A stretch of DNA of 64,000 nt from Bryoerythrophyllum caledonicum (lineage: Eukaryota; Streptophyta; Bryopsida; Pottiales; Pottiaceae), in the NCBI GenBank assembly GCA_963971425.1, contig OZ020524.1, positions 1,831,773 to 1,895,772 on the forward strand, in the 5' to 3' direction. This document shows positions 13,809 through 64,000 of this stretch, in pieces; position 1 is the first letter of the stretch; each line of letters starts with the position of its first letter. Position numbers and translations under genes: made by a program. The notes below the pieces were generated by a model that was given only the letters and a program-made list of their open reading frames with translations, had not been told where the DNA came from and searched no databases.

Positions 13809-14409
13809 GTAAACATATGTGGATTAACATTCATAAAGTTCATTGATTGTGGCACCTGATCGGTACACTAAAATTTATGTTTAGTGTAGTGTTATGAATA
13901 GTGTACTTAGTACACTATTTGTAAATGAGTTGACAAATAGTGTAAGCCACCAATGCCATTAATGTAACCCCAATCAACCACCTAACCCCAATAAAATAGT
14001 GTAAGCCACCAATGTCATAAATGTAAACTCCAATTAACCCCCAACTAACCCCAATCAACCACCTAACTGCCGTCATGTCTTTGCTCTCCCCATTTGCCAT
14101 CCTCATACCTATATCATCCCCATGCTTGCATCTTCCACTCTTGAACTCCCCCATCATATCATTGGTTGTTTCTGTGAGTTTTCTGTTTGAGATGAGTTTT
14201 CTGTTTGTGTTGTGTTTCTTTTCTATGGTGACTTGAATGAGACCTTGGAAAAAGAGGTGCATGAGGTGCATTTGATGAGTTTGATGAGCTATCATCAGCA
14301 CTCATGAAGTGCATGAGGAGAGAAAACCTGGCCACTTATGAGTTTGGTGCACTCTTTGTACTTCAGATTATCCTCATCAGACAAAAGATGAAGAACTCAT
14401 AAATACTGA

Positions 14410-14533
14410 CAGTGGGTAAGAGAATAGGCTTGATCAGTGGGTAAGAGAATGGACTAAATCAGTGGGTAAGAGAATGGACTAAATCAGTGGGTAAGAGAAT
14501 GGACTAAATCAATGGATAAGAAAATGGGCTGGT
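14410..14533. repeat. 25-bp tandem repeat, five units
   Basis: Consecutive copies of a unit starting CAGTGGGTAAGAGAATGGAC at 14410, 14435, 14460, 14485 and a diverged 24-bp copy at 14510. Units 2-4 are identical, suggesting recent slippage. It lies in the pogo element upstream of the transposase. Confidence 0.9.
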
Positions 14534-14673
14534 CAGTGGGCTAAATTTGTTGCTCTTTGCAGCTCATGATCGCTCCTGACAACTTTAGCTTATCCTCGCC
14601 ATACAACTTCAGCTTATCCTCGCCAGGTATTTTTTCCCACATAATTTTTTTTCTTCTTTCTCATTCTCTGGAC

Positions 14674-14691
14674 GGGGGGGGGGGCGGGGGG
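14674..14691. repeat. G-tract (G11-C-G6)
   Basis: Eleven G, one C, six G. Quadruplex-prone and a likely site of sequencing or assembly length error. Confidence 0.85.
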
Positions 14692-14836
14692 CTTATACTC
14701 CCATGGTGTGGGGTGGCGGACACAGCCGTGCCAAAAATTATGGGACAAGCTCATGACCGCCATCGAATGAAATTCATCACTCATCCAAACGTCTAGCAGG
14801 AATCTTTAACGAGAACGCATGCTTTCATTCGTAGAG

Positions 14837-16012
14837 ATGGACCCCGTTGCCCGCGACCGACGTCCATGATGGTCGGAGTGGGTCCAATGGCTCTACCCGT
14901 GTCTCCAACAAAATTTCGAGGCATATAAACGTGCCGGAGTTAAGTTTTCTTCAACCCTTTTTCTTGAACTCCACCAATCACTTCTCTTAGGATTAGATAC
15001 GGTCCAATGTAGAGATCCAAAGGATGGATGGCTATTAACAGATAAATTGACATAGTCGTGGATTCAACAATTCATGGATGTTAATAGCATTGTTTTACTA
15101 TCTCAATGGGGCCGTTTGAGTTGTAGCGCGGAAAAAGAAGCGCAAATCGAAAAAAACACCGCACATCATTTAGGAACTTTAGAACGGGGATTTCAATTGG
15201 GTGTTTTTGATGAAAATCTAATTGAAAACCTAGATGAAATCCACTTTACAATAAACATGGACAACGAACAAGCTCTAGGATTTCGGGGGGACATTTCAAT
15301 TAAATATGTGGAAGTTGTAGCCGGCGGAGAAGCAATAACTATGGTTGTACGTATTTCAGGGGGGCGTAGATCAATCATAGAACCTCCCATGCTTATTTTC
15401 AGCAATGAAAATAGAAATCATCCTATCTGAGGTTTAGATGACAACATCCCCGGAGTTTCTTATTGAACGGGACCAAAGGGTTGGAGGAATCAAAGTATAT
15501 TCCCACAATATTTTGAAGAATCTAGGGTATACCAAGCGGACCCACACAACCGCATTAAATTCATTAGGGTGGACAATTGTACGAGGCACAATTTAACCCC
15601 TACATAAGCGGCCGTTTTAGCACAAAAAAGAACTGTTTTGAAATACTTACCCCCTTGCGCAACCCACATATGTCAACCGGCCGACACGTTTATAATTTCA
15701 AAGATCAAGGACGCTTGGACCAAACGATGGGAACTCAAGAAAACCGAGTTAATTCAACAAGGCGTTTGGCAAAATAATGCTCGCGGCGACGGCCAATGGT
15801 CGGGCAAACTTTCTGATCCCGGTAAGCGTTTTTTTCTTCAATTAGCAGCGGATTCGGTTGAAGATGTTAATCACAAGGTTGATTGTGATCACATATCATA
15901 CGCTAGGAAATCTATGATAAGATGCGGCTTAGCATTAGGATTAGATGGCACTTGGACTCCTAACCAATTGTTTCCGCACTTGCAAGATATCATTGCAAAG
16001 CATCGTCCATAA
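14837..16012 (+). pseudogene. pogo/Tigger-like DDE_1 transposase, unit A copy
   Basis: One frame from the ATG at 14837 to the stop at 16012 (about 391 residues). Blocks: SEWVQWLYP and FEAYKRAGVKFSS near the N-terminus; LLSQWGRLSCSAEKEAQIEK; INMDN (first catalytic Asp); VVAGGEAITMVVRISGGRRS; GVSY and GPKGW; VDNCTRHNLTP (second Asp; the D copy reads DNCTGHN); LPPCATHICQPADTFIISKI (third Asp region). Five in-frame stops interrupt it (near 14867, 15056, 15428, 15464 and 15605), some from CGA or TGG. Similar DDE_1 proteins are remembered from oomycetes as well as plants, which raises a transfer question. It is the likely former source of activity for the CACTAAA family. Confidence 0.75.
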
Positions 16013-17529
16013 TTTGATGGACTAGAAGTGCCAAATTTTCCGTAGACAAATTAACCTATGTTATGTTTTTATTTATTATAAAGTTGTGATTTACTTCCCT
16101 ATTCGCCTATATATAAGTTCTTATGTTTTTCCAATGTATTTGTTGCACATGTTTCTTTTATCTAACCCCCCAATTTTCTTCTCAATTTTTAAACCAAATA
16201 CAATTCACAATTGTTGATTCTATTACAAGAGTAAAAAAGCCAAAAATAACGCTTACTTCATATTTCAACTCTAGGATCTTACTTAAACTATATTAGTTAA
16301 CTTGCTTACAAATATTCATCAACTTTCACTGTACGGATTGAAAGATTATGTTGATGAAGTAGAAAAATACTTCATTCCCTTTCTAGCGTTATGATGATCA
16401 ATAGACTTTGACTTTATTTCATGAAAAAAAATTCTCTACACGAAGTCTAAATTCATTGCCATCATGTCAATCATGATATTAACTCCTTTTTCACCAATTC
16501 TTAGAAAAATAAATGAGGTGTAGCATATTCAAACAATTGTACAAGGAATAGAGATTCAAACATTGTCAAATCACATTTTTATTAATTTGTGAACTTCATA
16601 TTTTTTACAATGAAAATCCATACAGTCAATTTAAAGGTTTGCATCACATCTTGTAGTAGAAAAGTACAAAGTGATAAACTTGAAATTCTCTAAGTTTTAT
16701 GTGGAGAATAAGAAGTTTTCTAGTACCATGACCCACAATGTGATAAAGTGTTTGACATGGCTTAAAATTTTAATTTTCATTGAAGACAAGATATCTATTT
16801 CGACAATATTAAAGAAAATAATCATTACTTGTATTGAAAATTTCACATGAGAAGGTGGCAAAAAAGGTTTTCGGAATTATCAACACTCAAAAGCTTCCAA
16901 GCATTCAAGAAGTTTTTCTATAAAATGTCATAACTTGTTTTCCTAAAGTCCAATGACAATAAATTATATAACCATCTACCTCTTATCTTATCTTTCTACA
17001 AAATTTCAAGAATTTTCAAATAAATTTGCAACCATGGAAACATGGATGAGATCTGCAAAAGCCCACCTCTAGAGTTTTTGCATTTCCGAGTTTAGTTGTA
17101 ATTTTACTTTCTTTCCAAATCTAGGTTCTTCTACTTTTTTCTTTTTTTCCTAATGTGCACTTTTCCTAAATTCCTCTTATGTTCTCCAATCTTTTTCTTT
17201 CTTTTTTCTTATGTTCCAATTCTCTTTTACTCCCATGTCTATATTCTCATTTTTCCAATACATTTTTTCCAAATCTTTCTTTTTTCGAATTTGCAAATCT
17301 ACTTCTCTTTTATTTCTAAGTTCTTGTTTTTCCAATATGTTTCTTCCAAATGTTTCTCTTTTTTCAAGTTGGAATTTCACTTTTCCTCCATATCTACAAA
17401 TGTTTTCAAGATTTTTGTTGCAAATTGTTGATTTTAGAAAATTATATAAAACCCGCTTCACTTTTAATGCACTAAATGTCCACAAGTAGAAAAAAATTAT
17501 AATGCAATATTTCCTAGTAACGTGCTTAA

Positions 17530-17742
17530 CCCCAAAAGGCCCAAGCCTTTAGAGAAGACTCTCTACTTTGTTCATTAAAAATTGCTAAGATGAACTTATG
17601 AAAGATATAACCATAGGATCTTCTAAACTTATACGAGATGATGTGGTCAAAAATTTGTGAACTATGACTATATGGATTGAAAGATAATTGTGGTTAAAGT
17701 GAACATTTTTGTACCCCGCAGGTACACTTGGGCCTTTAGAGA
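17530..17742. mobile_element. TTAA-flanked MITE (piggyBac-like), 213 bp, unit A
   Basis: Flanked by TTAA at 17526-17529 and 17743-17746. Terminal repeats CCCCAAAAGGCCCAAG and TCTCTAAAGGCCCAAG agree at 13 of 16 positions. TTAA target and a CCCTAAAG-type tip are piggyBac hallmarks. Nested in the pogo element. Confidence 0.55.
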
Positions 17743-17746
17743 TTAA

Positions 17747-18147
17747 CCCTTAAAGGTCTAAGAAGCCACATTTGGGTTGCAACATGGTGTTTTTGTGTAT
17801 TTGACATACAAGGTATAAAAATTGATGTATAGAGTAGTTACATAAGTTTGTATTTGTATTGAGCCCAATATGATGACACATAATAATTTAAATTTAGATC
17901 ATTATTGCACCTACTACATGCTTGAGAAGGTGTAAAATGGTCATATATTCTACATGTATGGTGCCGTAATTGAGCATGATAAGGTTCAAATATTGAAATG
18001 ACCTTCATATGGAAGATGTTAGTTGAAAAATCTTTAATCCAAAGGTGTATGTCTTGCCTAATTCTAGTATATTATTTGTATGTTAAAGAGTAAAATAAAT
18101 GACCAAATACATGACCATATACATGGTCCCCTATTGACCTTTAAGGG
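17747..18147. mobile_element. TTAA-flanked MITE (piggyBac-like), 401 bp, unit A
   Basis: Flanked by TTAA at 17743-17746 and 18148-18151, sharing the left TTAA with the neighbouring MITE. Terminal repeats start CCCTTAAAGGTC on both sides, exact over 12 bp. No coding capacity. Confidence 0.65.
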
Positions 18148-18195
18148 TTAAACTATTTGATTTCCAACCGGGAGCCCCATGCTTCTCCTCATTCT

Positions 18196-18346
18196 CAACT
18201 TTCAAATGGCCATAGCTTGTTCAAAATTTGTCCAAATTAAGCATACAAGGTGTTTTTTGGCGTCTACATTTTCTGTAGATGCCAAATAACACCTCACACG
18301 CCCACTTCGGATAAAAATTGAATGAGTTATGGCCATTTGAAAGTTG
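18196..18346. repeat. Long palindrome in pogo-family element, unit A
   Basis: Outer arms CAACTTTCAAATGGCCATA (18196-18214) and its exact complement (18328-18346), with an inner inverted pair around AGGTGTTTTTTGGC / GCCAAATAACACCT. Equivalent palindromes occur in the family members at about 28560-28700, 29570-29700, 40812-40965 and 56343-56493. Confidence 0.8.
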
Positions 18347-18695
18347 CTGATAAGATTCTCTGGCAGCCCTCGACTGCTGGACCTCTTTTCAGCCCTCAAC
18401 TGCTGGACCTTTTTTTTTTATATTTCTATTGATGATACACTAAATGTGCACAAGTGAAAAAATTATGTCCAACTCTTTACTAGAATTGACAAATAGTGTA
18501 GTAGTTGGCATTTAGTGTACGGTTATGTCACTACACTAAATGCCTTGTTTGCAATTGGTGTATGGGTTCGCATTTAGTGTATACTACACTAAACATAAAT
18601 TTTAGTGTAGTGTGTAACGATTGCTATTTACACGACAAGGGCATGAGCAGTTGATCGGAGGAGGACTGCTGGCACTGGTAAAGTAGCGGTGGTTT

Positions 18696-20716
18696 GTGAG
18701 TGTAGAAACACGCATTGAGGAAATGGTTGACAACGGAGGCCTGCATCCGGAGAGGTGCATATTAGTTACGGGCGGAGCGGGGTGCACTGGCACCCACACG
18801 TCGCTGCAACTGTTACTGGATGCATATACTGTCAGGTCGTCAATTCGTGTGAAGAAGCCATTCGGAGAGTTGTGGCTCTTGATGGAAAGCAAGGGAAGAA
18901 TCTCTCATTTCACAAGATATATGAATGTTGCCCTCTGTGATGTGCTCTGTAATAATTTCTGTCACATGTAATCATTGCTACCAAGAGCTCCAATTTTTAC
19001 AGATTCTTTTTTCCTAATCTATTTTTGAAGGTCTTGTCCTCATTGTGAGCGTCACGCTACGAATTCAAGCTTTCGAAACGTGTATAGGACCCGGTTTTTT
19101 ATTGTAGATTAGCTGTATAAAATTCGGAATTGCATCTGGCAGGTGGATCTTTGCATCAAAGCCGACATAGAAGCCATTTTTTATCTGCACCAGTATGGTC
19201 CTAAACTCGGCTTGAATATTTCACATTACGTAACAGCAAGATCTTTTATCCTTGGTGCACGTGATCCTCCATTCCTCAATGGTTGAATTATTTTAGACGG
19301 TATATAAATGTCTGACTGGGGATGATCAAGTCATGCAGATTCGATGCTGTGGTTCATTTCGCTGCTTTGAAGGCAGTTGGAGAGAGTTGTGCAAAACCTT
19401 TGCCTTACTATATCATCAATGTACTTGGAACGTTGAATCTATTGGATGTTATGACCGCTCGCAACTGCAAGAAGGTCTAATTTCACTGACTCTAACCTAC
19501 CATCTTTTGTATCTTCTGACTTCCATTTTTTTCGTTTTGCATCTTATTATCTAGGTCTTTGAAGAAGTTAAGATATGCACAGCGAGTCTCGGTTCAGAAC
19601 ACTCTTCAGAATGCTAATCGATTGATGTAGATAACTTGGTTTACAAGTGATTGTTGTCTGCTATGATGAACGAGACATGTAACATTGGGTTTTCTTAATA
19701 AGCTCTTTGCTGAAATTCGGTCCATAGAAAACATGTTCCTTTGTCTTCCGGAATTGGAATCGTCGCCGGCCTTTCTTCTTTGTTGCTGTACTGAATAGAT
19801 GCTGTACTTGCTTTTGCAGTTGGTGTTTTCATCTTCAGCGACTGTTTATGGACAACCGGAGAGCGTTCCAGTCACAGAGGAATCCCGTCTTTCTGTCTTG
19901 AATCCGTATGGCCGCACCAAGGTGCGACGTATGTTGTTCAGTAAACACCTAGTGATAAGGCAAGGATGGATTATGTTAGATCTGGTAAAAAACTCTTCTA
20001 TTCATCGAGTAACTTGTCCTTGGTGAACATCCTTTGTGTCAATGCTCTACAGCTTCAAGTTGAAGACATGATGCGCGACATTTCTGCTGCGGATCCAGAA
20101 TGGAGGACCATAGTTTTGCGGTATTTCAATCCTGTGGGAGCTCACCCGAGTGGCCGCCTGGGAGAGGACCCGCTAGGTGTTCCAAACAATCTGATGCCCT
20201 TTGTGCAGCAGGTGGCTGTGGGCAGAAGGAAAGAGCTGACTGTTTATGGCAACGATAACGACACGAAGGATGGCAAGGGGGTACGTATAAGATCTCAACA
20301 TATGAAATAAGAAATTATGTGAATTCTTATGTGCCTTTGCATTTGTAATTACGCAACTGAGGCTGAGCAGTGCTAGTATGAGTAATACGTTTATTATCTT
20401 TGAAGATGATAGCGTCTGTTATTCTGAAACTATATGTATTGATTTTACTGTTGGATTCTCCAGGTTCGTGATTACATTCACGTGCAGGATCTGGCTACTG
20501 GACACAGCGCCACCTTCCAGAAGTTGTTCACAACTCCTGACATAGGTGCACTTAGAATTTTATATCACGTCTTGCCCTTGTTGTCCTGGATAGCTGACGT
20601 TTTCTTTACTGACATTGTTTCGTGGATCTTCAGGATGTACTGCTTACAATCTGGGAACAGGGAAGGGGACCTCTGTGTTTGAAATCGTTTCTGCATTCGA
20701 GAAGGCTGCAGAATTG
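18696..20716 (+). pseudogene. UGE: UDP-glucose 4-epimerase pseudogene, unit A (3'-truncated)
   Basis: Exons: 1, 18696-18916 (possible ATG 18723); 2, about 19143-19193; 3, 19339-19474; 4, 19820-19921; 5, 20053-20280; 6, 20464-20545; 7, 20634-20716. Recognisable blocks: ILVTGGAG (NAD-binding GxxGxxG), [24 protein letters not shown] (catalytic Ser), NPYGRTK (catalytic Tyr and Lys), [30 protein letters not shown], and [16 protein letters not shown] interconverts UDP-glucose and UDP-galactose in the cytosol. Defects: a short deletion shifts frame in exon 1 (loss of the KVVVVDNV segment), the exon 1 donor is AT instead of GT, the dinucleotide-fold Tyr is Cys (GGAGCTG), and the final part of the gene (roughly the last 80 residues) is absent. 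It runs tail to tail with TNL A, whose stop lies 320 bp away. Confidence 0.85.
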
Positions 20717-21036
20717 GTAAGTATACTTTGGACTGTACGTATCATCTGATAATCTACAGACGAAAATCACTTATATAAACTGAATTCGTGGGGAGATTTT
20801 ACAACACTCTTCATTTTTGGACTTTGCATACTGTAGATTTAGTTGAATATGGCATCCAACCTTTTTGACTCGCATATATTTATACTTCTACACGTTTCAG
20901 ATCATCCATTTTCACACAAGAACAAACAGAGCAAACATTTCCATAAAGAATGAATAATACATCATATTGATCATGACCTATCTACAATATGAGAAATTTG
21001 GCAACTACTGGAGGAACTCTATTTCACTGCTTTTCT

Positions 21037-24000
21037 TCATGGCTTAAATCGTACTAAGGTTATTACTTCCTTTGGCTCGGCAAGGTCATCGTATATGTAC
21101 CCCAACACACCACTTGCATCTTCTTCCAAAACCTCATGTGAACCAATAGAATCAGTATAAGTTAGACAACCCTCTAAGTAATCGTTTGTTCTAGGGTCCC
21201 ATTCCAAGCCATGAAGAACAACAAGATGCGATACTTGACACATGGATAGTGGGAGCTTGGTGATGGAGGTGGTTCCCCAAATTCGCAGACCTTGTAGAGT
21301 TCTTAGTACCCCCATCGCCTCTATGCTTCCACAATTCAATATTTCAAAATTCTCTAAGCTCTCCAATTGTGTGATGGAAGTCGGAAGCTTCTTTAAACTT
21401 GTACAATTTTCCAACCTTAGAAACTCCAGCTGCAATAAAAGGCCGATAGACCTTGGGAGCTTTGTAATTGCCCAACAACTATCAAGGATCAGACATTTCA
21501 TTCTTGCCAATGCACCCAAATTTTTCGGCAACCTCTTCATGCAGTGGCAATTTCTAAGCTCTAAGCGAATGAGCATCTTGAGATCACCAATAGAATTTGG
21601 GAGGTGTTCAAGCTTCTTACAACTTTTCATATTCAAGGTTTCTAGACTTGGCAAGAGCCTTATGGATTCTGGTAGCTCTATCAAAGCAATGTCATATATT
21701 TCAAGGACTCTAAGATTTGTAAGGCTTTCCAATGCACCACTGCCAAGGAAGGACCCTACTTGACGTGAGGGTTCAAGATGTCGTACCACACTCTGCCCTT
21801 CGTCGATTTGAACATCCCTAAAAGCGGAGGGTTCAGAATCAGGTCCAAGAATTAAATGTCGGAGGCTTGACAAACGCTCAATGGAAGATGGAATCTCTTC
21901 CAAAGATGTGCAACCATATGCAAGAAAAATTTCCAAATTTGACAAAGCACCTAGAGAATAAGGCAAAGTTTTCAAGGATCTACAACCATTTATATAGAGG
22001 TATTTGAGGACCTTGAGTTGACCAATAGAATCTGGGATTGTCCTCAAGCTTTTGCAATCTCGCAAGGGTAGAACATCAAGGTGTAAGAATTGTCCCAAAA
22101 ATTCAGGTAGCTTTGTAATGGATGTGCATCCATTGAATGTAAGCTTCATAAGATTAGGGCATGTGATACTATCAGGCAAAGTCTCCAAGTTGCTACAATG
22201 CCATAAGTCGAGTACCTTTAGTGCTTTGAGTTGACCAATGAAATTCGGGAGTTTTTTGAGTTTTTCACACTCATTCAAGTCTAGATATTGTAGTTGTAAG
22301 GATTGTCCAAGGAAATCAGGGAGCCTTGTAATGGATTTGCATCCGCTCAAATTGACTGAATGTAAGTTGGGAAAGCCCTGCATACGAAATACAATAAAAG
22401 GTGAGATAACCTTTACATCTACATCCATGTGTAAAAAGTGAGGTGAAGGACTTTCTATGTTATGTTTTCTACCTTCCATAGAGTGGATCATCATTTGATA
22501 GGATTATGGTACATGGACATTCAACGTTTGAGGCGTCCAAAGTGCGAGAAGAATCAAATACTCCATTACAACCAAGAAGAAATATCATTGCTCTTTACTC
22601 CATTACTAAAGAGAAAATACTTGCCTACATAAATTTCACAAATTTGTGGTTTAGTATATAGTTCTTAAGCTCCAAACGAAAAGCACTCATGACTTTCATC
22701 GTTCATGCTATCATCTTAGATTCCATTCACATGCCTTTAACTAAATTGAAATTACAAGCACTCTTGTCTAAATATTCACTACACACTAAAGGACCAACTT
22801 GATAGTTTCAATACTTGCCTACATAATTTCTCCAAACTACTCTAATTTCTCCAAACTTTAAGTCCATATAGTATACAATGTCCTCCACCAAAACACATCA
22901 TCACCACTTTCATAGTTTATTTTTATTCTCATTCATTATGATACAATTCATGTCCTAAAGCTTAGCTTTGCAAATAAATATCTCTTTAAAATTTGTGATA
23001 ACATTTTGCAAATGAACACCACGATACATCAACTAAAAGTTTCCCTTCACAACGTACCACGATATATCAACTAAAAGTTTCCCTTCACAACTTACAACAA
23101 TTAGACTGTATTGGATACAATTTCAATCAAAACATTGATGGCAAAGAAAAAGAATTTGCAATCAAAATTTTACATACCTCTTGCCTACCACTTGATTCCG
23201 TCCATATGGAAGCCAAGTTTGTGCTACTAGATAGATCTAGAGATGTCAATAGACTTAGACTGAACCCCGCCGGTAATCTTTTCATTGGCATGCTTCTCCA
23301 TTGGAACAACCGCAATTTCTTTGAAATGCATCCAAAGTCTCCATCCAAATTGCATCCATCCGGTAGTCGAAGAGCAAGTAGATTGGTCATCTTTCCAAAA
23401 TCCTTTGCATTGAACTTCCGCTTTCCACATCCCACCATATTCAATCCTATTACCTCAACTTTGTCCTGCAACCAAAAGACAAACCAAAACCTCATAATGA
23501 AATGAATGGCATACAAATCAATACCACTATACTCATTCATCAAATAATACACAACCTAAGAATAAAATCTCATCAAATCCCCTATCCATATGTTTGGCCA
23601 AACCAAAAAAATGAAAGAAACACACTCTCATCCATAGCATGACACAACCTACCTCATCCACCATAAAGTCATCATTTGTAAGGTGTCGTCTCGCATTCAT
23701 TGCAAGCCTTTGACCCAACTCCCGCAACAACCCATGTACTTCGAATATGCCCTTTGCATAAACCAAATTCTTGTTGACAAGATTGCGGAGTGAGGTGTAC
23801 GGTGTCACAAAACCAACATAACCTCGAGAGTGCTTGCAACTCTCCCAATATGCAAAGGCTTCTTCAACACTATGAGCATCAAACAAACATGTAATGTCCA
23901 TAAACATGAGCTTCTCAGATGCATTCAATCTCTCATAGCTCCATCTCAACACTCCCATCACATCTTCGCATGCTCGCAATGCACATGTTGCCTCCACCCA

Positions 24001-25426
24001 AATTGTCTCTCGATCTCCATCCAATCTCTTGTCAAACAAGCTTGATCCCATCACCTTTAGTGCAAGCGGCAAGCCACCACATGCTTCCACAACACTCTTC
24101 GCTACATCTTTGTAGTCTATTGGAGCATCTTTGGAATGAAAGGCATGCAAGTTGAAAAGCATATTGGCATCTTCAACACCCAATTCGGACATCTCAAATA
24201 TGAAATGTTCACTTGCTTTATCTACAAAATTGTTGACTACACTTTGATCACGAGATGTCACAATGACGCGGCTACCAGGGCCAAGCACCCCAAAGGATGG
24301 TACAAGTTCTTGGAATTGCCCCAGGCTATGAATGTCGTCAATAACAATGAAGACCGGGCCAAGCATAGATACTCTTTGAAACAATGTGCCATATCTTGAG
24401 CCTTTGTCTTGTGTGCGAAGCAAATCCCACAACAATTGCTCTTGCAAGTTGCTATGCCATCTCGGTCGCACTTGCACATCCAAAGATGAGCAATCCCGAC
24501 GGACCTCCAAGAAGGTCATGAACTTGAACTCAGTGGTACCTGCATAATGGTTGTAGATTTCCCTTGCTAGAGTGGTCTTTCCAACCCCACCCATTCCCAC
24601 CAACCCCAACAATCCAACTCCATAACCCATGCTTCCCAATACCTCAATGCATGCATGGGTTGGACCCTCCAGTCCCACTCTACACTCGTCCACCTCAACT
24701 GCCTGGTTGGAAGGAGTAAGGCGTGTAATTTCATTCACCACCTCCCGCTTCAGCCTCGCTTCATCACTACACAAGACATCCATCATGATGGCAGACGCAA
24801 TCATTTTCCTCATAAAAGATGCAAGCATGCAGAAACCTCTTTACGGTACTAACTAGGTGTCCTTGCAACTTTAAGATATATGACAAATTACAATATGCAC
24901 TTGGTTGTTGCCTCTGAATGTGGAAAGGACATTGAGGCACTCACCTTTTGTAATCAGCCAAGCGGAAACCCGTTCGCTCCGCCAGGACCGCAAGCGCATC
25001 TCTCCACTTTTGCAATTTCCTCGCGCTTCTCCCCCGCTCCTTGTGTCTCTTAAAAGCCTCCGCGAACGGTCCATTCTCCACCCACCGCAAGTCCACGGGC
25101 TCCACACCGTAGAACACCGGAATCACCGGTTTGCGGCTCCTTATCATGGCCACCAGCTCTTTCAAACAGTACTTGGACTCCGCATAGCCCGGAGACACGA
25201 TCGCGATGTGCACTTTGGCCGTAGCCAAAGCCTGATCGATGGACTCAAGGGCGGGATTGCTTTTCCGAAGAGACTTGACGTCTAGAAACGGACGAAAGCC
25301 TGCACTCAGGAGCGCATCCTCCAGATGCGCCACGAACGTGGCTTTCACATCAGGCCCACGGTGGTTCAGAAACACGTCGAACTCCTCCGCTGCCGAACCA
25401 CTCGCTCCGGCTTCAAAATCGTTCAT
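21037..25426 (-). CDS. TIR-NBS-LRR resistance protein, copy A, intact (1074 aa)
   Basis: Exons 25426-24945, 24766-23653, 23465-23178 and 22377-21037, with consensus junctions (AAG|GTGAGT, TGTGTAG|T, GAG|GTAGGT, TTGCAG|GAC, GAG|GTATGT, ATGCAG|GGC). TIR domain, residues 14-155: FDVFLNHRGPDVK, SPGYAESKYCLKEL with the putative NADase Glu at 90. NB-ARC: P-loop GMGGVGKTT (218-226), kinase-2 IVIDDI (301-306), RNBS-B GSRVIVTSR (325-333), GLPLAL (392-397). The MHD position reads VHG (504-506). Exon 3 links to the LRRs; exon 4 holds LRRs of about 24 residues (LxxLxLxxCxxLxxLPxSI type). It would act as an intracellular receptor whose TIR signals through NAD breakdown on activation. The frame is open throughout. 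The start is the first ATG before the TIR; no promoter box was seen. Confidence 0.88.
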
Positions 25427-28044: not shown

Positions 28045-28346
28045 TTCAGACAATTTGTTAATCTAGATGATACAATCTCAATAAAAGGAAATCAAGCTGA
28101 AAGCAGGAAAAGAAATCAGAAAGATGACGATTGTCCACTTCATCATTGAAGTTACTGCAGTCTGCAGCCAGAGTGACTGAAGAAGATGCTGCCGTGGTCA
28201 AAACTCCATGTGCAGATCAGTGTTTTATTAATTGAAATTGAGAAAGTCTGATCTACTACATATCATAACAAATCATTAGAGAAATTCATGAAACTTTTCA
28301 CTTAACCCCTACACTTTAAAAGGACAATAGTCCCCACTGGGGACTA

Positions 28347-28906
28347 CACTAAACATTGCATTTAGTGTAGTCACACAAATAGTGTAATTACCCTACTACA
28401 CTATTTGCGAACTTGTTCACAACTAGTGTTAGCGGCCAACATCATTATTGATGCCTCCACTAACCGCCTACTAGCCATCAAGTATTTATTCTCTATGTTG
28501 ACTATTCTTGTTTTCTCTATGTTGACTATTCTTGTTGAATTTACATCACCAAAATCTGGAAATGCCCATAACTTACTCATATTTTCTTCAAATTAAACAT
28601 AGGATATGTTTTTTGAAATCTACAGAAAATGTAGATGTCAAAAAACATCTCATGACTGTAATTCCGATACTTTTTGAGTGACTTATGCTCCTTTGAATAG
28701 TGCTGATTTTATTCACTGCGGCAAGATTTTTCATGCACTAATTGTGCACAAGTAAAAAAAAAAAACCACCCATTTTTACTGCAATTCACATATAATGTAA
28801 TGTTTCACATTTAGTGTAATGTTGTGTCGTAACACTAATTGTAATTCTTCCTTGTAGTGTAAGAGTTCGTATTTAGTGTAGACGACACTAAATGTGATTT
28901 TTAGTG
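28347..28906. mobile_element. CACTAAA-type MITE, 560 bp (pogo family), A-B spacer
   Basis: Flanked by TA (28345-28346, 28907-28908). Ends CACTAAACATTGCATTTAG and, inverted, CACTAAAAATCACATTTAG. The B-C spacer carries the intact empty site GGGGACTACTTGTCT with a single TA at 40105-40106, which fixes the element's borders. Confidence 0.85.
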
Positions 28907-28924
28907 TACTTGTCTTTCAGTCAA

Positions 28925-29090: not shown

Positions 29091-29315
29091 GTACATATTA
29101 TAACAAATCGTTTTGGAGTGATCAATACAAATAACTCTTTACACTTGAGATAAGGTCCTTTGTATCAATCGGTACCTCCTTCAGTGCCTAGGTGGTCACA
29201 ATGTGGTCACTCTATGCTTAAAACTTCAATGGACATGAGGTACATGAGGAACTAGATTCTGAATACATGTGGATTAACATTCATAAATTTCATTGGTTGT
29301 GGCACCTGATTGGTA

Positions 29316-30657: not shown

Positions 30658-30743
30658 TAGTGTGACGATTGCTATTTACACGACGAGGGCGTGAGCAGTT
30701 GATTGAAGGAGGACTGCTGGCACTGGTAAAGTAGCGGTGGTTT

Positions 30744-41105: not shown

Positions 41106-41191
41106 TAGTGTGACGATTGCTATTTACACGACGAGGGCGTGAGCAGTTGATTGAAGGAGGACTGCTGGCACTCGTAAAGTAGCGGTGGTTT

Positions 41192-51253: not shown

Positions 51254-51442
51254 TAGGTGACCTACCCTTCATTTCACATTATACTGACTGGTACTCCAGA
51301 AAATAAAAACCAACCCCGCATCAAGTTGTATACCTACCCCTCCCTAATATCATCACTCATACCCCTTATATCCCCTCTACCCCCTTCTCTGTGTCACAGC
51401 CCCTTTCTATTCTAACTCTTTTTTTTCCCCTTGGTTTTGATC

Positions 51443-53318: not shown

Positions 53319-54157
53319 GAACTTTACAACGGGGATTTCAATTGGGTGTTTTTGATGAAAATCTAATGGAAAACCTAGATGAAATCCACTTTACAATAAA
53401 CATGGACAACGGACGAGCTCTAGGATTTCGGGGGGACATTTCAGTTAAATACGCAGATGTTGTAGCCGGCGGAGAAGCAATAACTATGGTTGTACGTAGT
53501 TCAGGGTGGCGTAGATCAATCATAGAACCTCTCATGCTTATTTTCAGCAATGAAAATATGAATTATCCTATTTGGGGTTTAGATGACAACATCCCCGGAG
53601 TTTCTTACCGAACGGGACCAAAGGGTTGGATGGATCAAAGTATATTCCCACAATATTTTGAAGAATCTAGGGTATACCAAGCGGACCCACACAACCGCAT
53701 CAAATTCATTTGGGTGGACAATTGTACGGGGCACAATTTAACCCCTACATTAACGGCCGTTTTAGCACAAAAAAGAATCGTTTTGAAATACTTACCCCCG
53801 TGCGCAACCCACATATGTCAACCGGCCGACACGTTTATAATTTCAAAGATCAAGGACGCTCGGACCAAACGATGGGAGCTCAAGAAAACCAAGTTAATTC
53901 AACAAGGCGTTTGGCAAAATAATGCTCGCGGCGACGGCCAATGGTCGGGCAAACTTTCTAATCCCGGTAAGCGTTTTTTTCTTCAATTAGTGGCGGATTC
54001 GGTTGAAGATGTTAATCGCGAGGTTGATTGTGATCACATATCATACGCTAGGAAATCTATGATAAGATGCGGCTTAGCATTAGGGTTAGATGGCACTTGG
54101 ACTCCTAACCAATTGTTTCCGCACTTGCAAGATATCATTGCAAAGCATCGTCCATAA
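53308..54157 (+). pseudogene. pogo/Tigger-like transposase, unit D, N-terminally truncated
   Basis: Open to the stop at 54157 from HHLGTLQRGFQLGVFDEN onward, with INMDNGRALGF (first Asp), VDNCTGHNLTP (second Asp), LPPCATHICQPADTFIISKI (third Asp region) and the C-terminal HLQDIIAKHRP. None of the stops seen in copy A are present, so D preserves the better version of this region. The N-terminal part including the DNA-binding region is absent; the open frame extending left to 53261 belongs to piggyBac DNA read in another frame and is not a real start. Confidence 0.75.
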
Positions 54158-55676
54158 TTTGATGGACTAGAAGTGCCAAATTTTCCATAGGCAAATTAAC
54201 CTATGTTATGTTTTTATTTATTATAAAGTTGTGATTTACTTCCCTATCTGCCTATATATAAGTTCTTATGTTTTTCCAATGTATTTGTTGCACATGTTTC
54301 TTTTATCTAACCCCCCCAATTTTCTTCTCAATTTAAAACCAAATACAATTCACAATTGTTGATTCTATTACAAGAATAAAAAAAGCCAAAAATAACGCTT
54401 ACTTCATATTTCAACCCTAGGATCTTACTTAAAATATATTAATTAACTTGCTTACAGATATTCATCAACTTTCACCGTACGGATTGAAAGATTATGTTGA
54501 TGAAGTAGAAAAATACTTCATTCCCTTTCTAGCGTTATGATGATCAATAGACTTTGACTTTATTTCATGAAAAAAAATTCTCTACACGAAGTCTAAATTA
54601 ATTGCCATCATGTCAATCATGATATTAACTCCTTTTTCACCAATTCTTAGAAAAATAAATGAGGTGTAGCATATTCAAACAATTGTACAAGGAATAGAGA
54701 TTCAAACATTGTCAAATCACATTTTTATTAATTTGTGAACTTCATATTTTTTACAATGAAAATCCATACAGTCAATTTAAAGGTTTGCATCACATCTTGT
54801 AGTAGAAAAGTACAAAGTGATAAACTTGAAATTCTCTAAGTTTTATGCGGAGATTAAGAAGTTTTCTAGTACCATGACCCACAATGTCATAAAGTGTTTG
54901 ACATGGCTTAAAATTTTAATTTTCACTGAAGACAAGATATCTATTTCGAAAATATTAAAGAAAATAATCATTACTTGTATTGAAAATTTCACATGAGAAG
55001 GTGGCAAAAAAGGTTTTCGGAATTATCAACACTCAAAAGCTTCCAAGCATTCAAGAAGTTTTTCTATAAAATGTCATAACTTGTTTTCCTAAAGTCCAAT
55101 GACAATAAATTATATAACCATGTACCTCTTATCTTATCTTTCTACAAAATTTCAAGAATTTTCAAATAAATTTGCAACCATGGAAACATGGATGAGATCT
55201 GCAAAAGCCCACCTCTAGAGTTTTTGCATTTCCGAGTTTAGTTGTAATTTTACTTTCTTTCCAAATCTAGGTTCTTCTACTTTTTTTTTTTTTTCCTAAT
55301 GTGCACTTTTCCTAAATTCCTCTTATGTTCTCCAATCTTTTTCTTTCTTTTTTCTTATGTTCCAATTCTCTTTTACTCCCATGTCTATATTCTCATTTTT
55401 CCAATACATTTTTTCCAAATCTTTCTTTTTTTGAATTTGCAAATCTACTTCTCTTTTATTTCTAAGTTCTTGTTTTTCCAATATGTTTCTTCCAAATGTT
55501 TCTCTTTTTTCAAGTTGGAGTTTCACTTTTCCTCCATATCTACAAATGTTTTCAAGATTTTTGTTGCAAATTGTTGATTTTAGAAAATTATATAAAACCC
55601 GCTTCACTTTTAAATGCACTAAATGTCCACAAGTAGAAAAAAATTATAATGCAATATTTCCTAGAAACGTGCTTAA

Positions 55677-55889
55677 CCCCAAAAGGCCCAAGCCTTTTGA
55701 GAAGACTCTCTACTTTGTTCATTAAAAATTGCTAAGATGAACTTATGAAAGATGTAACCATAGGATCTTCTAAACTTATACGAGATGATGTGGTCAAAAT
55801 TTTGTGAACTATGACTATATGGATTGAAAGATAATTGTGGTTAAAGTGAACATTTTTGTACCCCGTAGGTACACTTGGGCCTTTAGAGA
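55677..55889. mobile_element. TTAA-flanked MITE, 213 bp, unit D
   Basis: Copy of 17530-17742, TTAA at 55673-55676 and 55890-55893. Inherited with the duplication. Confidence 0.55.
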
Positions 55890-55893
55890 TTAA

Positions 55894-56294
55894 CCCTTAA
55901 AGGTCTAAGAAGCCACATTTGGGTTGCAACATGGTGTTTTTGTGTATTTGACATACAAGGTATAAAAATTGATGTATAGAGTAGTTACATAAGTTTGTAT
56001 TTGTATCGAGCCCAATATGATGACACATAATAATTTAAATTTAGATCATTATTGCACCTACTACATGCTTGAGAAGGTGTAAAATGGTCATATATTCTAC
56101 ATGTATGGTGCCGTAATTGAGCATGATAAGGTTCAAATATTGAAATGACCTCCATATGGAAGATGTTAGTTGAAAAATCTTTAATCCAAAGGTGTATGTC
56201 TTGCCTAATTCTAGTATATTATTTGTATGTTAAAGAGTAAAATACATGACCAAATACATGACCAAATACATGGTCCCCTATTGACCTTTAAGGG
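55894..56294. mobile_element. TTAA-flanked MITE, 401 bp, unit D
   Basis: Copy of 17747-18147, TTAA at 55890-55893 and 56295-56298, tips CCCTTAAAGGTC. Confidence 0.65.
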
Positions 56295-56342
56295 TTAACC
56301 TATTTGATTTCCAACCGGGAGCCCCATGCTTCTCCTCATTCT

Positions 56343-56493
56343 CAACTTTCAAATGGCCATAGCTTGTTCAAAATTTGTCCAAATTAAGCATACAAGGTGT
56401 TTTTTGGCGTCTACATTTTCTGTAGATGCCAAAAAACACCTCACACGCCCACTTCGGATAAAAATTGAATGAGTTATGGCCATTTGAAAGTTG
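56343..56493. repeat. Long palindrome in pogo-family element, unit D
   Basis: Same structure as 18196-18346. The inner arms match better here (TGCCAAAAAACACCT). Confidence 0.75.
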
Positions 56494-56841
56494 CTGATAA
56501 GATTCTCTGGCAGCCCTCGACTGCTGGACCTCTTTTCAGCCCTCAACTGCTGGACCTTTTTTTTTATATTTCTATTGATGATACACTAAACGAGCATAAG
56601 TGAAAAAATTATGTCCAACTCTTTACTAGAATTGACAAATAGTGTAGTAGTTGGCATTTAGTGTATGGTTATGTCACTACACTAAATGCCTCGTTTGCAA
56701 TTGGTATATGGGTTCGCATTTAGTGTATACTACACTAAACATAAATTTTAGTGTAGTGTGAAACGATTGCTATTTACACGACAAGGGCATGAGCAGTTGA
56801 TCGGAGGAGGACTGCTGGCACTGGTAAAGTAGCGGTGGTTT

Positions 56842-58878
56842 GTGAGTGTAGAAACACGCATTGAGGAAATGGTTGACAACGGAGGCCTGCATCTGGAGAG
56901 GTGCATATTAGTTACGGGCGGAGCGGGGTGCACTGGCACCCACACGTCGCTGCAACTGTTACTGGATGCATATACTGTCAGGTCGTCAATTCGTGTGAAG
57001 AAGCCATTCGGAGAGTTGTGGCTCTTGATGGAAAGCAAAGGAAGAATCTTTCATATCACAAGGTATATGAATGTTGCCCTCTGTGATGTGCTCTGTAATC
57101 ATTTCTGTCACATGTAATCATTCCTCATCATTGCTACCAGGAGCTCCAATTTTTACAGATTCTTTTTTCCTAATCTATTTTTGAAGGTCTCGTCCTCATT
57201 GTGAGCGTCACGCTTCGAATTCAAGCTTTCGAAACGTGTATAGGACCCGGTTTTTTTATTGTAGATTAGCTATATTAAATTCGGAATTGCATCTAGCAGG
57301 TGGATCTTTGCATCAAAGCCGACATGGAGGCCATTTTTTATCTGCACCAGTATGTTCCTAAACTTGGCTTGAATATTTCAAATTACGTAACAGCAAGATC
57401 TTTTATCCTTGGTGCACGTACGTGATCCTCCATTCCTCAATGGTTGAATTATTTTAGACGGTATATAAATGTCTGACTGAGGATGATCAATTCATGCAGA
57501 TTCGATGCTGTGGTTCATTTCGCTGCTTTGAAGGAAGTTGGAGAGAGCTGTGCAAAACCTTTGCCTTACTATATCATCAATGTACTTGGAACGTTGAATC
57601 TTTTGGATGTTATGACCGCTCGCAACTGCAAGAAGGTCTAATTTCACTGACTCTAACCTACCATCTTTTGTATCTTCCGACTTCCATTTTTTTTCGTTTT
57701 GCATCTTATGATATAGGCCTTTGAAGACGTTAAGATATACACTGCGAGTCTCGGTTCAGAACACTCTTCAGAATGCTAATCGATTGATGTAGATAACTTG
57801 GTTTACAAGTGATTATTATCTGCTATGATGAACGAGACATGTAACACTGGGATTTCTTAATAAGCTCTTCGCTGAAATTCGGTCCATAGAAAACATGTTC
57901 CTTGGTCTTCCGGAATTGGAATCGTCGCCGGCCTTTCTTCTTTGCTGCTGTACTGAATAGATGTTGTACTTGCTTTTGCAGTTGGTGTTTTTATCTTCAG
58001 CGACTGTTTATGGACAACCGGAGAGCGTTCCAGTCACAGAGGAATCCCGTCTTTCTGTCTTGAATCCGTATGGCCGCACCAAGGTGCGACGTATGTTGTT
58101 CAGTAAACACCTAGTGATAAGGCAAGGATGGATTATGTTAGATCTGGTAAAAAACTCTTCTATTCATCGAGTAACTTGTCCTTGGTGAACATCCTTTGTG
58201 TCAATGCTCTACAGCTTCAAGTTGAAGACATGATGCGCGACATTTCTGCTGCGGATCCAGAATGGAGGACCATAGTTTTGCGGTATTTCAATCCTGTGGG
58301 AGCTCACCCGAGTGGCCGCCTGGGAGAGGACCCGCTAGGTGTTCCAAACAATCTGATGCCCTTTGTGCAGCAGGTGGCTGTGGGCAGAAGGAAAGAACTG
58401 ACTGTTTATGGCAACGATAACGACACGAAGGATGGCAAGGGGGTACGTATAAGATCTCAACATATGAAATAAGAAATTATGTGAATTCTTATGTGCCTTT
58501 GCATTTGTAATTACGCAACTGAGGCTGAGCAGTGCTAGTATGAGTAATACGTTTATTACCTTTGAAGATGATAGCGTCTGTTATTCTGAAACTATATGTA
58601 TTGATTATACTGTTGAAATCTCCAGGTTCGTGATTACATTCACGTGCAGGATCTGGCTACTGGACACAGCGCCACCCTCCAGAAGTTGTTCACAACTCCT
58701 GACATAGGTGCACTTAGAATTTTATATCACGTCTTGCCCTTGTTGTCCTGGATAGCTGACGTTTTCTTTACTGACATTGTTTCGTGGATCTTCAGGATGT
58801 ACTGCTTACAATCTGGGAACAGGGAAGGGGACCTCTGTGTTTGAAATCGTTTCTGCATTCGAGAAGGCTGCAGGATTG
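56842..58878 (+). pseudogene. UGE: UDP-glucose 4-epimerase pseudogene, unit D
   Basis: Exons: 1, 56842-57062 (ATG 56869); 2, about 57300-57350; 3, 57500-57635; 4, 57982-58083; 5, 58215-58442; 6, 58626-58707; 7, 58796-58878. It shares with A the exon 1 deletion and frameshift (GGAGCTGTHTS, then loss of the VVVDN segment) and the retained exon 2, but keeps a normal GT donor after exon 1. Exon 3 reads [16 protein letters not shown]. The sequence ends after exon 7, as in all copies. It cannot encode a complete epimerase. It is convergent with TNL D; the gap to the TNL stop is 320 bp. Confidence 0.85.
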
Positions 58879-59198
58879 GTAAGTATACTTTGGACTGTAC
58901 GTATCATCTGATAATCTACAAACGAAAATCACTTAAATAAACTGAATTCGTGGGGAGATTTTACAACACTCTTCATTTTTGGACTTTGCATACTGTAGAT
59001 TTAGTTGAATATGGCATCCAACCTTTTCGACTCGCATATATTTTCACTTCTACACGTTTCAGATCATCCATTTTCACACAAGAACAAACAGAGCAAATAT
59101 TTCCACAAAGAATGAATATTACATCATATTGATCATGACCTATCTACAATACGACAAATTTGGCAACTATTGGAGGAACTCTATTTCGCTGCTTTTCT

Positions 59199-62100
59199 TC
59201 ATGGCTTAAATCGTACTAAGGTTTTTACTTCCTTTGGCTCCGCATGGTCATCGTATATGTACCCCAACACACCACTTGCATCTTCTTCCAAAACCTCATG
59301 TGAACCAATAGGACTTGTACAAAATAGACCTCCTTCTAAGTAATCGTCTGTTCTATGTCTCCATTCCAAGCCATCACGAACAACAAGATGCGATACTTCA
59401 CATATGGATAGTGGGAGCTTGGTGATGGAGGTGGTTCCCCAAATTCGCAGACCTTGCAAAGTTCTTAGTACCCCCATCGCCTCTATGCTTCCACATTTCC
59501 ATATTTCAAAATTCTCTAAGCTCTCCAATTGTGTGATGGAAGCCGGAAGCTTCTTTAGACTTGTACAATTTTCCAACATTAGAAACTCCAGCTGCAATAA
59601 AAGGCCGATAGACCTTGGGAGCTTTGTAATAGCCCAACAACTAACAAGGATCAGACATTTCATTCTTGCCAATGCACCCAGATTTTTTGGCAACCTCTTC
59701 ATGCGGTGGCAATTTCTAAGCTCTAAGCGAATGAGCATCTTGAGATCACCAATAGAATTTGGGAGGTGTTCAAGCTTCTCACAATTTATCATATTCAAGG
59801 TTTTTAGACTTGTCAAGAGCCTTATGGATTCCGGTAGCTCAATCATAGCAATGTCACATATTTCTAGGACTCCAAGATTTGTAAGACTTTCCAATGCACC
59901 ACTGCCAAGGAAGGACCCTGCTTGACCTGAGGATTCAAGATGTCGTACCACACTCTGCCCTTCGTCAATATGAACATCCCTAAAAGCGGAGCGTTCAGAA
60001 TCAGGTCCAAGATATAAATATTTGAGGCTTGACAAAGCACCTAGAGAATAAGGCAAAGTTTTCAAGGATCTACAACCGTCTAAATAGAGGTATTTGAGGA
60101 CCTTGAGTTGACCAATAGAATCTGGGATTGTCCTCAAGCTTTTGCAATCTCGCAAGGATAGATCATCAAGGTGTAAAAATTGTCCCAAAAATTCAGGTAG
60201 CTTTGTAATCGATGTGCATCCATAGATTATAAGCTCCATAAGATTAGGGCATGTAATACTATCAGGCAAAGTCTCCAAGTTGCTACATTTCCGTAAGTTG
60301 AGTACCTTTAGTGCTTTGAGTTGACCAATGAAATTCGGGAGTTTTTCCAATTTTCTACACTTATGCAAGTCTAGATATTGTAGTTGTAAGGATTGTCCAA
60401 GGAAATCAGGGAGCCTTGTAATGGATTTGCATCCGCTCAAATTGACTGAATGTAAGTTGGGAAAGCCCTGCATACGAAATACAATAAAAGGTGAGATAAC
60501 CTTTACATCTACATCCATGTGTAAAAAGTGAGGTGAAGGACTTTCTATCTTATGTTTTCTACCTTCCATAGAGTGGATCATCATTTGATAGGATTATGGT
60601 ACATGGACATTCAACATTTGAGACGTCCAAAGTGTGAGTAGAATCAAATACTCCATTTCAACCAAGAAGAAATATCATTGCTCTTTACTCCATTACTAAA
60701 GAGAAAATACTTGCCTACATAAATTTCACAAATTTGTGGTTTAGTATATAGTTCTAAAGCTCCAAACGAAAAGCACTCATGACTTCCATCGTTCATGCTA
60801 TCATCTTAGATTCCATTCACATGCCTTTAACGAAATTGAAATTACAATCACTCTTGTCTAAATATTCACTACACACTAAAGTACAAACTTGATTGTTTCA
60901 ATACTTTCCTACATACTTTCTCCAAACTACTGTAATTTCTCCAAACTTTAAGTCCTTATAGTATACAATGTCCTCCACCAAAACACATCATCACCACTTT
61001 CATAGTTTATTTTTATTCTCATTCATTATGATATAATTCTTGTTCTAAAGCTTAACTTTGCAAGTAAATATCTCTCTAAAATTTGTGATAACATTTTGCA
61101 AATGAACACTACAATACATCAACTAAAAGTTTCCCTTCACAACGTACCACAATATATCAACTAAAAGTTTCCCTTCACAACGTACCACAATATATCAACT
61201 AAAAGTTTCCCTTCACAACTTACAACAATTAGACTGTATTAGATACAATTTCAATCAAAACATTGATGGCAAAGAAAAAGGATTTGCAATCAAAATTTTA
61301 CATACCTCTTGCCTACCACTTGATTCCGTCCATATGGAAGCCAATTTTGTGCTACTAGATAGATCCAGAGATGTCAATAGACTTAGACTGAGCCCCATTG
61401 GTAATCTTTTCAATGGCATGCTTCTCCATTGCAACAACCGCAATTTCTTTGAAATGCATCCAAAGTCTCCATCTAATTTGCATCCATCCGGTAGTCGAAG
61501 AGCAAGTAGATTGGTCATCTTTCCAAAATCCTTTGCATTGAACTTCCGCTTTCCACATCCCACCATATTCAATCCTATTACCTCAACTTTGTCCTGCGAC
61601 CAAAAGACAAACCAAAACCTCATAATGAAATGAATGGCATAAAAATCAATACCACTATGCTCATTCATCAAATAATACACCACCTAAGCATAAATCTCAT
61701 CAAATCCCCTATCCATATGTTTGGCCAAACCAAAAAGATGAAAGAAACACACTCTCATCCATAGCATGACACAACCTACCTCATCCACCATAAAGTCATC
61801 ATTTGTAAGGTGTCGTCTCGCATTCATTGCAATCCTTTGGCCCAACTCCCGCAACAACCCATGCACTTTGAATATGCCCTTTGCATAAACCAAATTCTTG
61901 TTGACAAGATTGCGGAGTGAGGTATACGGTGTCACAAAACCAACATAACCTCGAGAGTGCTTGCAACTCTCCCAATATGCAAAGGCTTCTTCAACACTAT
62001 GAGCATCAAACAAACATGTAATGTCCATAAACATGAGCTTCTCAGATGCATTCAATCTCTCATAGCTCCATCTCAACACTCCCATCACATCTTCGCATGC

Positions 62101-63553
62101 TCGCAATGCACATGTTGCCTCCACCCAAATTGTCTCTCGATCTCCATCCAATCTCTTGTCAAACAAGCTTGATCCCATCACCTTTAGTGCAAGCGGCAAA
62201 CCACCACATGCTTCCACAACACTCTTCGCTACGTCTTTGTAGTCTATTGGAGCATCTTTGGAATGAAAGGCATGCAAGTTGAAAAGCATATTGGCATCTT
62301 CAACACCCAATTCGGACATCTCAAATATGAAATGTTCACTTGCTTTATCTACAAGATTGTTGACTACACTTTGATCACGAGATGTCACAATGACGCGGCT
62401 ACCAGGGCCAAGCACCCCAAAGGAAGGTACAAGTTCTTGGAATTGCCCCAGGCTATGAATGTCGTCAATAACAATGAAGACCGGGCCAAGCGTAGATACT
62501 CTTTGAAACAATGTGCCATATCTTGAGCCTTTGTCTTGTGTGCGTAGCAAATCCCACAACAATTGCTCTTGCAAGTTGCTATGCCATCTCGGTCGCACTT
62601 GCACATCCAAAGATGAGCAATCCCGACGGACCTCCAAGAAGGTCATGAACTTGAACTCAGTGGTACTTGCATAATGGTTGTAGATTTCCCTTGCAAGAGT
62701 GGTCTTTCCAACCCCACCCATTCCTACCAACCCCAACAATCCAACTCCATAACCCATGCTTCCCAATACCTCAATGCATGCATGGGTTGGACCCTCCAGT
62801 CCCACTCTACACTCGTCCACCTCAACTGGCTCGTTGGAAGGACTGAGGCGTGTAACTTCATTCACCACCTCCCGCTTCAGCCTCGCTTCATCACTACACA
62901 AGACATCAATTATGATGGCAGACGCAATCATTTTCCTCATAAAAGATGCAAGCATGCAGAAACCTCTTTACGGTACTAACTAGGTGTCCTTGCAACTTTA
63001 AGATATATGACAAATTACAATATGCACTTGGTTGTTGCCTCTGAATGTGGAAAGGACATTGAGGCACTCACCTTTTGTAATCAGCCAAGCGGAAACCCGT
63101 TCGCTCCGCCAGGACCGCAAGCGCATCTCTCCACTTTTGCAATTTCCTCGCGCTTCTCCCCCGCTCCTTGTGTCTCTTAAAAGCCTCCGCGAACGGTCCA
63201 TTCTCCACCCACCGCAAGTCCACGGGCTCCACACCGTAGAACACCGGAATCACCGGTTTGCGGCTCCTTATCATGGCCACCAGCTCTTTCAAACAGTACT
63301 TGGACTCCGCATAGCCCGGAGACACGATCGCGATGTGCACTTTGGCCGTAGCCAAAGCCTGATCGATGGACTCAAGGGCGGGATTGCTTTTCCGAAGAGA
63401 CTTGACGTCTAGAAACGGACGAAAGCCTGCACTCAGGAGCGCATCCTCCAGGTGCGCCACGAACGTGGCTTTCACATCAGGCCCACGGTGGTTCAGAAAC
63501 ACGTCGAACTCCTCCGCTGCCGAACCACTCGCTCCGGCTTCAAAATCGTTCAT
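59199..63553 (-). CDS. TIR-NBS-LRR resistance protein, copy D, intact (1050 aa)
   Basis: Exons 63553-63072, 62893-61780, 61593-61306 and 60467-59199, all junctions consensus, open throughout. The TIR exon is identical in protein to copy A (catalytic-type Glu 90, RSRKP after AMI). NB-ARC motifs GMGGVGKTT, IVIDDI, GSRVIVTSR and GLPLAL are present and the MHD position reads VHG. The LRR exon lacks the same 24-residue repeat as copy C, giving a shorter LRR than A. Intron 3 carries three copies of a 38-bp tandem unit (around 61105-61220) against two in other copies. Upstream sequence is cut by the window end after about 450 bp. Expected role is intracellular pathogen sensing, as for A, with different LRR surface residues. 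Confidence 0.88.
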
Positions 63554-63679
63554 TGCGAAATGCCACCAGATCTAGATCCCTACTGCAGACGTGTTGGACG
63601 TTATGTCCACTCCAGTCATGTGCTTCTCAAACGCCTCAGCAAAACAGCCACCCTGCCGCGGTCTCGAGTGACCAGCTCC

Positions 63680-64000
63680 CACCAGTCAGTCAGTCACCAC
63701 TAACCTGCATCGAACTGAACCGCTGACATAACAGACCATGAACACTTGGTTTCCAACAGTGGGCAAGAAGTGAGCACCAGTCGATCAGCTCCGCTAACCT
63801 GCGTCAGACTAGATCGACCGGCATCGCAGACATCGAAAATCTGGGTGTCAACATGAGAAACTAGGCAGCCAGTCACCACTACCCTGCATCGAACTGAATC
63901 GCCATAGCAGACACCGAAAACTTGTCGCCACAAAGTGCGCACCAGTCGATCAGTTTCGCTAACGTGCTTCAACTAGATCGGCATCGCACACATCAAAATT
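63680..64000. repeat. Degenerate minisatellite upstream of TNL D, cut by window end
   Basis: Collinear with the A copy; continues beyond the window. Confidence 0.7.

Follow-up and report, generated by a model that had tools for sequence, protein, structure and literature searches.

How does a fragment of a housekeeping gene come to be amplified together with a resistance gene, and which of the two has been the object of selection? The question is raised by a stretch of 64,000 nucleotides of the moss Bryoerythrophyllum caledonicum (C12:1831773-1895772 in a genome of 437 Mb and 894 contigs), here called the window, in which truncated copies of a gene for UDP-glucose 4-epimerase (UGE) stand beside genes of the TIR-NB-LRR class (TNL, LRR being the leucine-rich repeat) and beside remains of pogo-like transposons. 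All positions are those of the window, and those above 64000 or negative lie outside it. In keeping with a moss, an LHC protein of this genome scores best, the unexpected top match 9vfj set aside, against 8htu and 7xqp, two Physcomitrium structures (470.5 and 468.6 bits, against 440.8 for the next). The array exists as described and could be measured well, but its kind is an ordinary one: a birth-and-death array of TNL genes with a hitchhiking pseudogene.

Four collinear units and their common junction

The window was compared with itself, first alone and then extended by 40 kb on the left and about 80 kb on the right, the minimum match length being 250 bp (window), 350 bp (with flanks) or 60 bp (finer list). 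Split at a common TA site, the array falls into four collinear units: A (13.8-29.3 kb), B (29.3-40.6 kb), C (40.6-50.1 kb) and D (53.3-66.4 kb). Over the 8.6-9.4 kb that extend from UGE to the TNL 5' flank, the element site left out, identity in the six pairs of units is 95.61-96.69%; collinearity and identity of this order are far beyond chance. Four collinear units, as proposed by the initial annotation, are confirmed, and the spacings that it gave between TNL start codons, 11,850, 10,379 and 15,898 bp, are exact (predicted starts on the minus strand at 25426, 37276, 47655 and 63553). In every unit UGE lies on the plus strand and TNL on the minus strand, in a tail-to-tail arrangement; in unit A, 320 bp separate UGE exon 7 from the TNL stop. 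The co-amplification of a UGE fragment with TNL in this fixed layout, also claimed earlier, is supported, and UGE is broken in every copy.

On its left the array begins with 47 bp of unit flank (13817..13863), which precede the element site of unit A and belong to a 74-bp match to sequences starting at 29267, 40531 and 66367 (90.5-93.2% identical), and 13000-13816 holds no unit homology among matches of at least 60 bp; the boundary originally placed at 13,809 fits the measured one, at about 13,817. Four units do lie within the window, but the array continues past it, which had been missed: a fifth UGE copy, E, is found at about 70.0-72.5 kb, lacks a TNL and keeps 3' exons that A-D have lost.

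A complete relative of the UGE fragments is present on chromosome C7. The nine exons of this gene form an uninterrupted frame of 378 codons, and it is related to UDP-glucose 4-epimerases of solved structure (PDB 8wop, 7xpo), aligning to 8wop over residues 5-352 of 378; each of the five copies in the array, by contrast, is truncated or has a broken frame. Alignment with it delimits four pseudogenes on the plus strand, all without exons 8-9: copy A (18723..20723), with exons 1-7 and a 13-bp deletion in exon 1; copies B (30771..32685) and C (41219..43134), which have both lost exon 2; and copy D (56869..58885), again with a 13-bp deletion in exon 1. Copy E has lost exon 2 and keeps exons 8-9 in altered form. 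The complete nine-exon frame is found in none of the five copies, and their lesions rule out a functional UGE in the array. Judged by these lesions, the fragments look like passengers. Copy E is also ruled out as a simple ancestor of A-D, lacking as it does the exon 2 that A and D keep. Exon 5 of UGE matches ten places in the genome, namely the five array copies, one copy on C7 (91%) and four sequences at 65-66%.

In units A-D the UGE/TNL junction is identical and lies directly after the splice donor of UGE exon 7. This junction is absent in E, which past the same point runs into sequence like the C7 intron. Since there is a single junction in A-D, the simplest view is that truncated UGE and TNL were joined once and that the join was copied later. 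Moreover, introns and intergenic DNA have been duplicated together with the exons, and growth of the array by segmental (tandem) duplication, as the initial annotation held, is supported by both features.

The units have not simply diverged as wholes. In the 5' part of UGE, A and D are 97.4% identical and B, C and E 95.6-97.5%, with 85.0-86.1% between the two groups; the middle part shows 95.4-97.6% identity in all ten pairs; and in the 3' part identity among A, B, C and D is 96.7-98.7%, with E at 90.9-91.7% to those four. Along the units, 148 informative sites divide into 95 that group AD against BC, 40 that group AB against CD and 13 that group AC against BD, arranged in 45 runs where 76.1 are expected and where the minimum in 10,000 shuffles was 59. 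It is well supported by these patterns that the units are mosaics produced by exchange of sequence between them, for which the route may be crossing over or conversion. This mosaic ancestry, visible in the 5' grouping of A and D against B, C and E as well as in the runs test, had escaped the initial annotation.

The TNL genes and selection on their repeats

Each TNL gene is predicted to consist of four exons on the minus strand. Gene A (21037..25426; exons 24945-25426, 23653-24766, 23178-23465 and 21037-22377, of 482, 1114, 288 and 1341 nt) encodes 1,074 aa and gene D (59199..63553) 1,050 aa, and the frame is open in these two of the four copies. Genes B (32999..37276) and C (43448..47655) each carry one in-frame stop in the LRR exon, at codons 804 and 712, respectively. 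Both C and D have 72 bp, that is one LRR, fewer than A and B, and the predicted splice signals are conserved in all four units.

The Pfam domains of gene A are, in order, TIR (PF01582), NB-ARC (PF00931) and LRR (PF23598), all above the cut-off. Introns are in phase 2 after TIR (exon 1 having 482 nt) and in phase 0 between NB and LRR (482+1114 nt making 532 codons), with the same lengths in all four genes; this is the pattern of the TNL class as given in the available part of a previous report (PMC3352924). The best solved-structure match of exons 1-2 is ROQ1 (E 9.7e-62). The glutamate of the CLxEL stretch, which we take to be the catalytic residue of TIR, aligns with that of ROQ1. The likeness covers TIR and NB-ARC along residues 13-518 of the array protein (PDB 7jlu/7jlv/7jlx), the LRR lying outside the compared query; the relationship is distant, and where ROQ1 has MHD the array protein reads VHG, so that this canonical motif, which is common and not defining, is absent.

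Elsewhere in the genome, the closest relative is a pseudogene at C2:2342791, with a TIR 84% identical. At least 95 TIR matches occur genome-wide (149 candidates scored), several of them in tandem groups. Tandem groups of TIR genes other than the array were observed at C3:12529785-12584385 (four matches) and C12:5500875-5572329 (three matches).

Selection was assessed through the ratio of nonsynonymous to synonymous change (dN/dS), from Nei-Gojobori counts summed over the six pairs of A-D. The test set comprised 50 codons, the x positions of ten repeats of LxxLxLxxC type (xxLxLxx), which are predicted to be solvent-exposed. The ratio was 0.35 in exons 1-2 and 0.39 in exon 3; it was 0.91 in the remaining LRR exon and 5.2 in the 50 xxLxLxx codons, where with a pseudocount it was 4.7 (1.8-41 under codon bootstrap). 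Furthermore, 26 of the 50 xxLxLxx residues are variable, against 68 of 397 others (Fisher p 2e-7). On these counts, the TIR and NB-ARC exons are constrained and the predicted solvent-exposed LRR codons diversify. No report of diversifying selection on bryophyte TNL LRRs was found among the titles and abstract openings of open-licence literature aimed at bryophyte NLRs (nucleotide-binding LRR proteins), which is not proof of absence.

The shared transposon site and other sequence

The pogo element that the initial annotation had placed in each of the four units does not hold: the DDE_1 transposase is matched in A and D only (2 of at least 132 matches in the genome, a lower bound for which 132 of 803 candidates were scored), B, C and E carry short inverted remnants, and a pogo-like transposase in every unit is thus ruled out. 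In unit A the pogo-like (DDE_1) DNA transposon, which has relatives elsewhere in the genome, is present end to end (13864..18612, plus strand), with inverted ends flanked by TA and a frame broken by two TGA and one TAA. The element of unit D (53308..56758, plus strand) lacks its 5' part and is 97.54% identical to that of A over 3,449 bp. The common TA site holds short inverted pogo-family derivatives on the minus strand in unit B (29314..30661, split at about 29746-30561 by another repeat) and unit C (40578..41109), and another short derivative (28343..28909, plus strand) occurs solely between units A and B, in their intergenic DNA. The earlier claim that the duplicated unit includes the transposons is therefore partly correct: next to each UGE copy the one TA site does hold an element, but this is the long plus-strand element in A and D (left end missing in D) and a short minus-strand derivative in B, C and E.

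The long elements of A and D are 97.5% identical to each other, 95.1-95.8% identical to two genomic copies (L030 and L033) and at most 96.3% identical to the five other fetched copies in BLAST pieces above 1 kb; the comparison uses L030 and L033, the values for L032 and L034 being low where stretches do not correspond throughout, and L031 having not been aligned. As the identity between A and D exceeds that to the other copies, it fits duplication or exchange and not two insertions. The TA site, then, is old and shared, and the long element is probably common to A and D through duplication or exchange.

The array element resembles the pogo superfamily, as described in the accessible part of a survey (PMC7386202), in its DDE_1 domain, inverted ends and TA flanks; the catalytic domain (PF03184) was detected in the element of unit D as well as in two copies elsewhere in the genome. 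It is unlike the superfamily in that no Pfam match to an N-terminal HTH/CENP-B-type DNA-binding domain was obtained, at E up to 1, in the two copies tested (518 and 575 aa). The pogo label is therefore provisional, the more so because the same portion of the survey gives, among land plants, only Lemi, from 23 eudicot species (PMC7386202). The Mover family, too, is without a detectable DNA-binding domain. With its matches, at least 132, and its TA-flanked inverted ends, the DDE_1 family may represent a pogo-like lineage of a bryophyte that has so far gone unreported. From Physcomitrium, the part consulted of PMC7466625 records other Mariner-like elements, which are close to those of fungi.

Next to the broken element of unit D, and missed by the initial annotation, lies a piggyBac-type transposase within two open frames (51416..53318, plus strand; PF13843 in both), which the junction sequence shows to be cut off where the pogo-like element starts. 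Its pieces match DDE_Tnp_1_7 with E values of 1.3e-24 and 1e-40. Transposases of this type are abundant in the genome (at least 120 matches, 116 of 305 candidates having been scored); to our knowledge they are rare in land plants. A 448-bp inverted match, 93% identical, links 52209-52655 in the piggyBac-type gene with -1882 to -1435 in the left flank.

As regards the remaining sequence, neither an RNA family at gathering scores nor a tRNA was found in the window. Long open frames of up to 366 aa occupy both strands of 1584-3272, three of them without a Pfam match. A 3.5-kb inverted repeat, 77.8% identical, connects 6625-10172 with 87427-90986 in the right flank and contains three open frames without a Pfam match. 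Finally, 116750-126160 in the right flank, about 9.4 kb, is a satellite-like tandem array in which the matches are offset by around 147 bp.

Origin of the array and its significance

The simplest history would start from a TNL on the minus strand followed by a UGE on the plus strand, head to head. The junction would have been created by a tandem duplication that had one breakpoint within UGE intron 7 and the other past the 3' end of the TNL, while later unequal crossing over and gene conversion would have altered the copy number and mixed the units. The TNL would be the selected part, since its TIR and NB-ARC are conserved, its LRR residues predicted to be exposed change faster than silent sites, the number of LRRs varies and stops are found in two of the four copies. 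To judge from ROQ1 and other TNLs, recognition of a pathogen molecule would fall to the LRR, and the TIR would be an NAD-consuming enzyme. The UGE pieces would be passengers and, in addition, a substrate for misaligned pairing, and the pogo-like elements would be passengers that mark the units. Very probably, this is an ordinary tandem resistance-gene (R-gene) cluster under birth and death, in which copies are gained, lost and diversified.

Several points weigh against this account. The ancestral order is not proven, because a leftmost TNL with a 3' flank other than UGE was not found. The TNL exon boundaries are predictions from frames, splice signals and alignment; the dN/dS sums reuse the same four sequences across six pairs; and 398 of 10,000 random sets of 50 LRR codons reach the xxLxLxx score, so that the enrichment in amino-acid changes is a firmer result than the ratio. 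Activity cannot be assumed, as the MHD position reads VHG. Moreover, no copy has a stop in UGE exons 3-7; over about 210 codons any two of the five copies show 7-20 changes, and dN/dS is 0.43-0.87 in nine of the ten pairs (1.65 in one). For this reason the passenger status of UGE rests on the 13-bp deletion, the loss of exon 2 and the missing 3' exons, and the few changes in an open stretch argue against very old decay.

These open exons leave room for a selected pairing of UGE with TNL, for instance through fragment transcripts that regulate TNL or through a guarded decoy, and the fixed layout would agree with it. Such a pairing is nonetheless quite improbable, given that UGE bears three kinds of disabling lesion, that so few changes per pair make dN/dS imprecise, that tandem duplication alone gives the layout and that no UGE match was found in the 40 kb examined around the TNL relative on C2. 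It is unlikely, too, that the TNLs form a decaying non-functional cluster in which the LRR pattern reflects relaxed constraint; the stops in B and C, the pseudogene on C2 and the VHG sequence would be expected from decay, but A and D are open over their whole length with conserved splice signals, and a ratio of 0.35 in exons 1-2 is combined with one above 1 at the exposed LRR codons.

An assembly artefact, with one locus or two haplotypes misplaced in tandem, is highly improbable: tandem near-repeats are where assemblers err, and the assembly has 894 contigs, but the units are 3-5% divergent, with private stops (B and C), deletions and inserts, four copies plus a fifth partial one exceed two haplotypes, and the moss gametophyte is usually haploid. 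Repeated insertion, in which separate transpositions brought UGE and/or TNL, for example after capture by the pogo-like element, is scarcely credible. It could draw on the fact that each UGE copy has a pogo-family element next to it, always at one exact TA site; UGE and TNL, however, lie outside the element ends, the junction, introns and intergenic DNA are common to the units, and the five other fetched copies of the element (of at least 132 matches) show no UGE or TNL match.

As far as the parts of the source reports available describe them, the coffee SH3 cluster of CNL (coiled-coil NLR) genes shares with this array tandem copies, birth and death, gene conversion and positive selection at xxLxLxx (PMC3113787), and the cacao NLR clusters share tandem copies, birth and death and pseudogene copies (PMC12405883). 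The moss array differs from both in its TNL class, its bryophyte host and the non-NLR housekeeping pseudogene in each unit. Likewise, within what was accessible of two reports on mosses (PMC3352924, PMC11218826), TIR-NLR expansions are recorded, and the TNLs of Physcomitrium share the TIR-NB-LRR structure and the class-specific phase 2/0 introns; a tandem array with diversifying LRR codons, as found here, is not described for them there. Transient expression of other TIRs of seed-free plants in Nicotiana benthamiana is reported in PMC11218826. A tentative extension, rather doubtful at present, is that a TNL array of a seed-free plant, a group stated in the same portion of PMC11218826 to lack EDS1, makes new LRR surfaces by the route of angiosperm R clusters, with the UGE pseudogene and the fixed transposon site as pairing substrate, and with two old versions of the UGE 5' part (85-86% alike) marking repeated exchange between diverged units.

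R-gene birth and death is a well-known plant route to new pathogen detectors, and the array shows its usual signs. In a bryophyte, it illustrates this process with particular clarity, for the UGE and transposon pieces serve as built-in markers of which unit has recombined with which.

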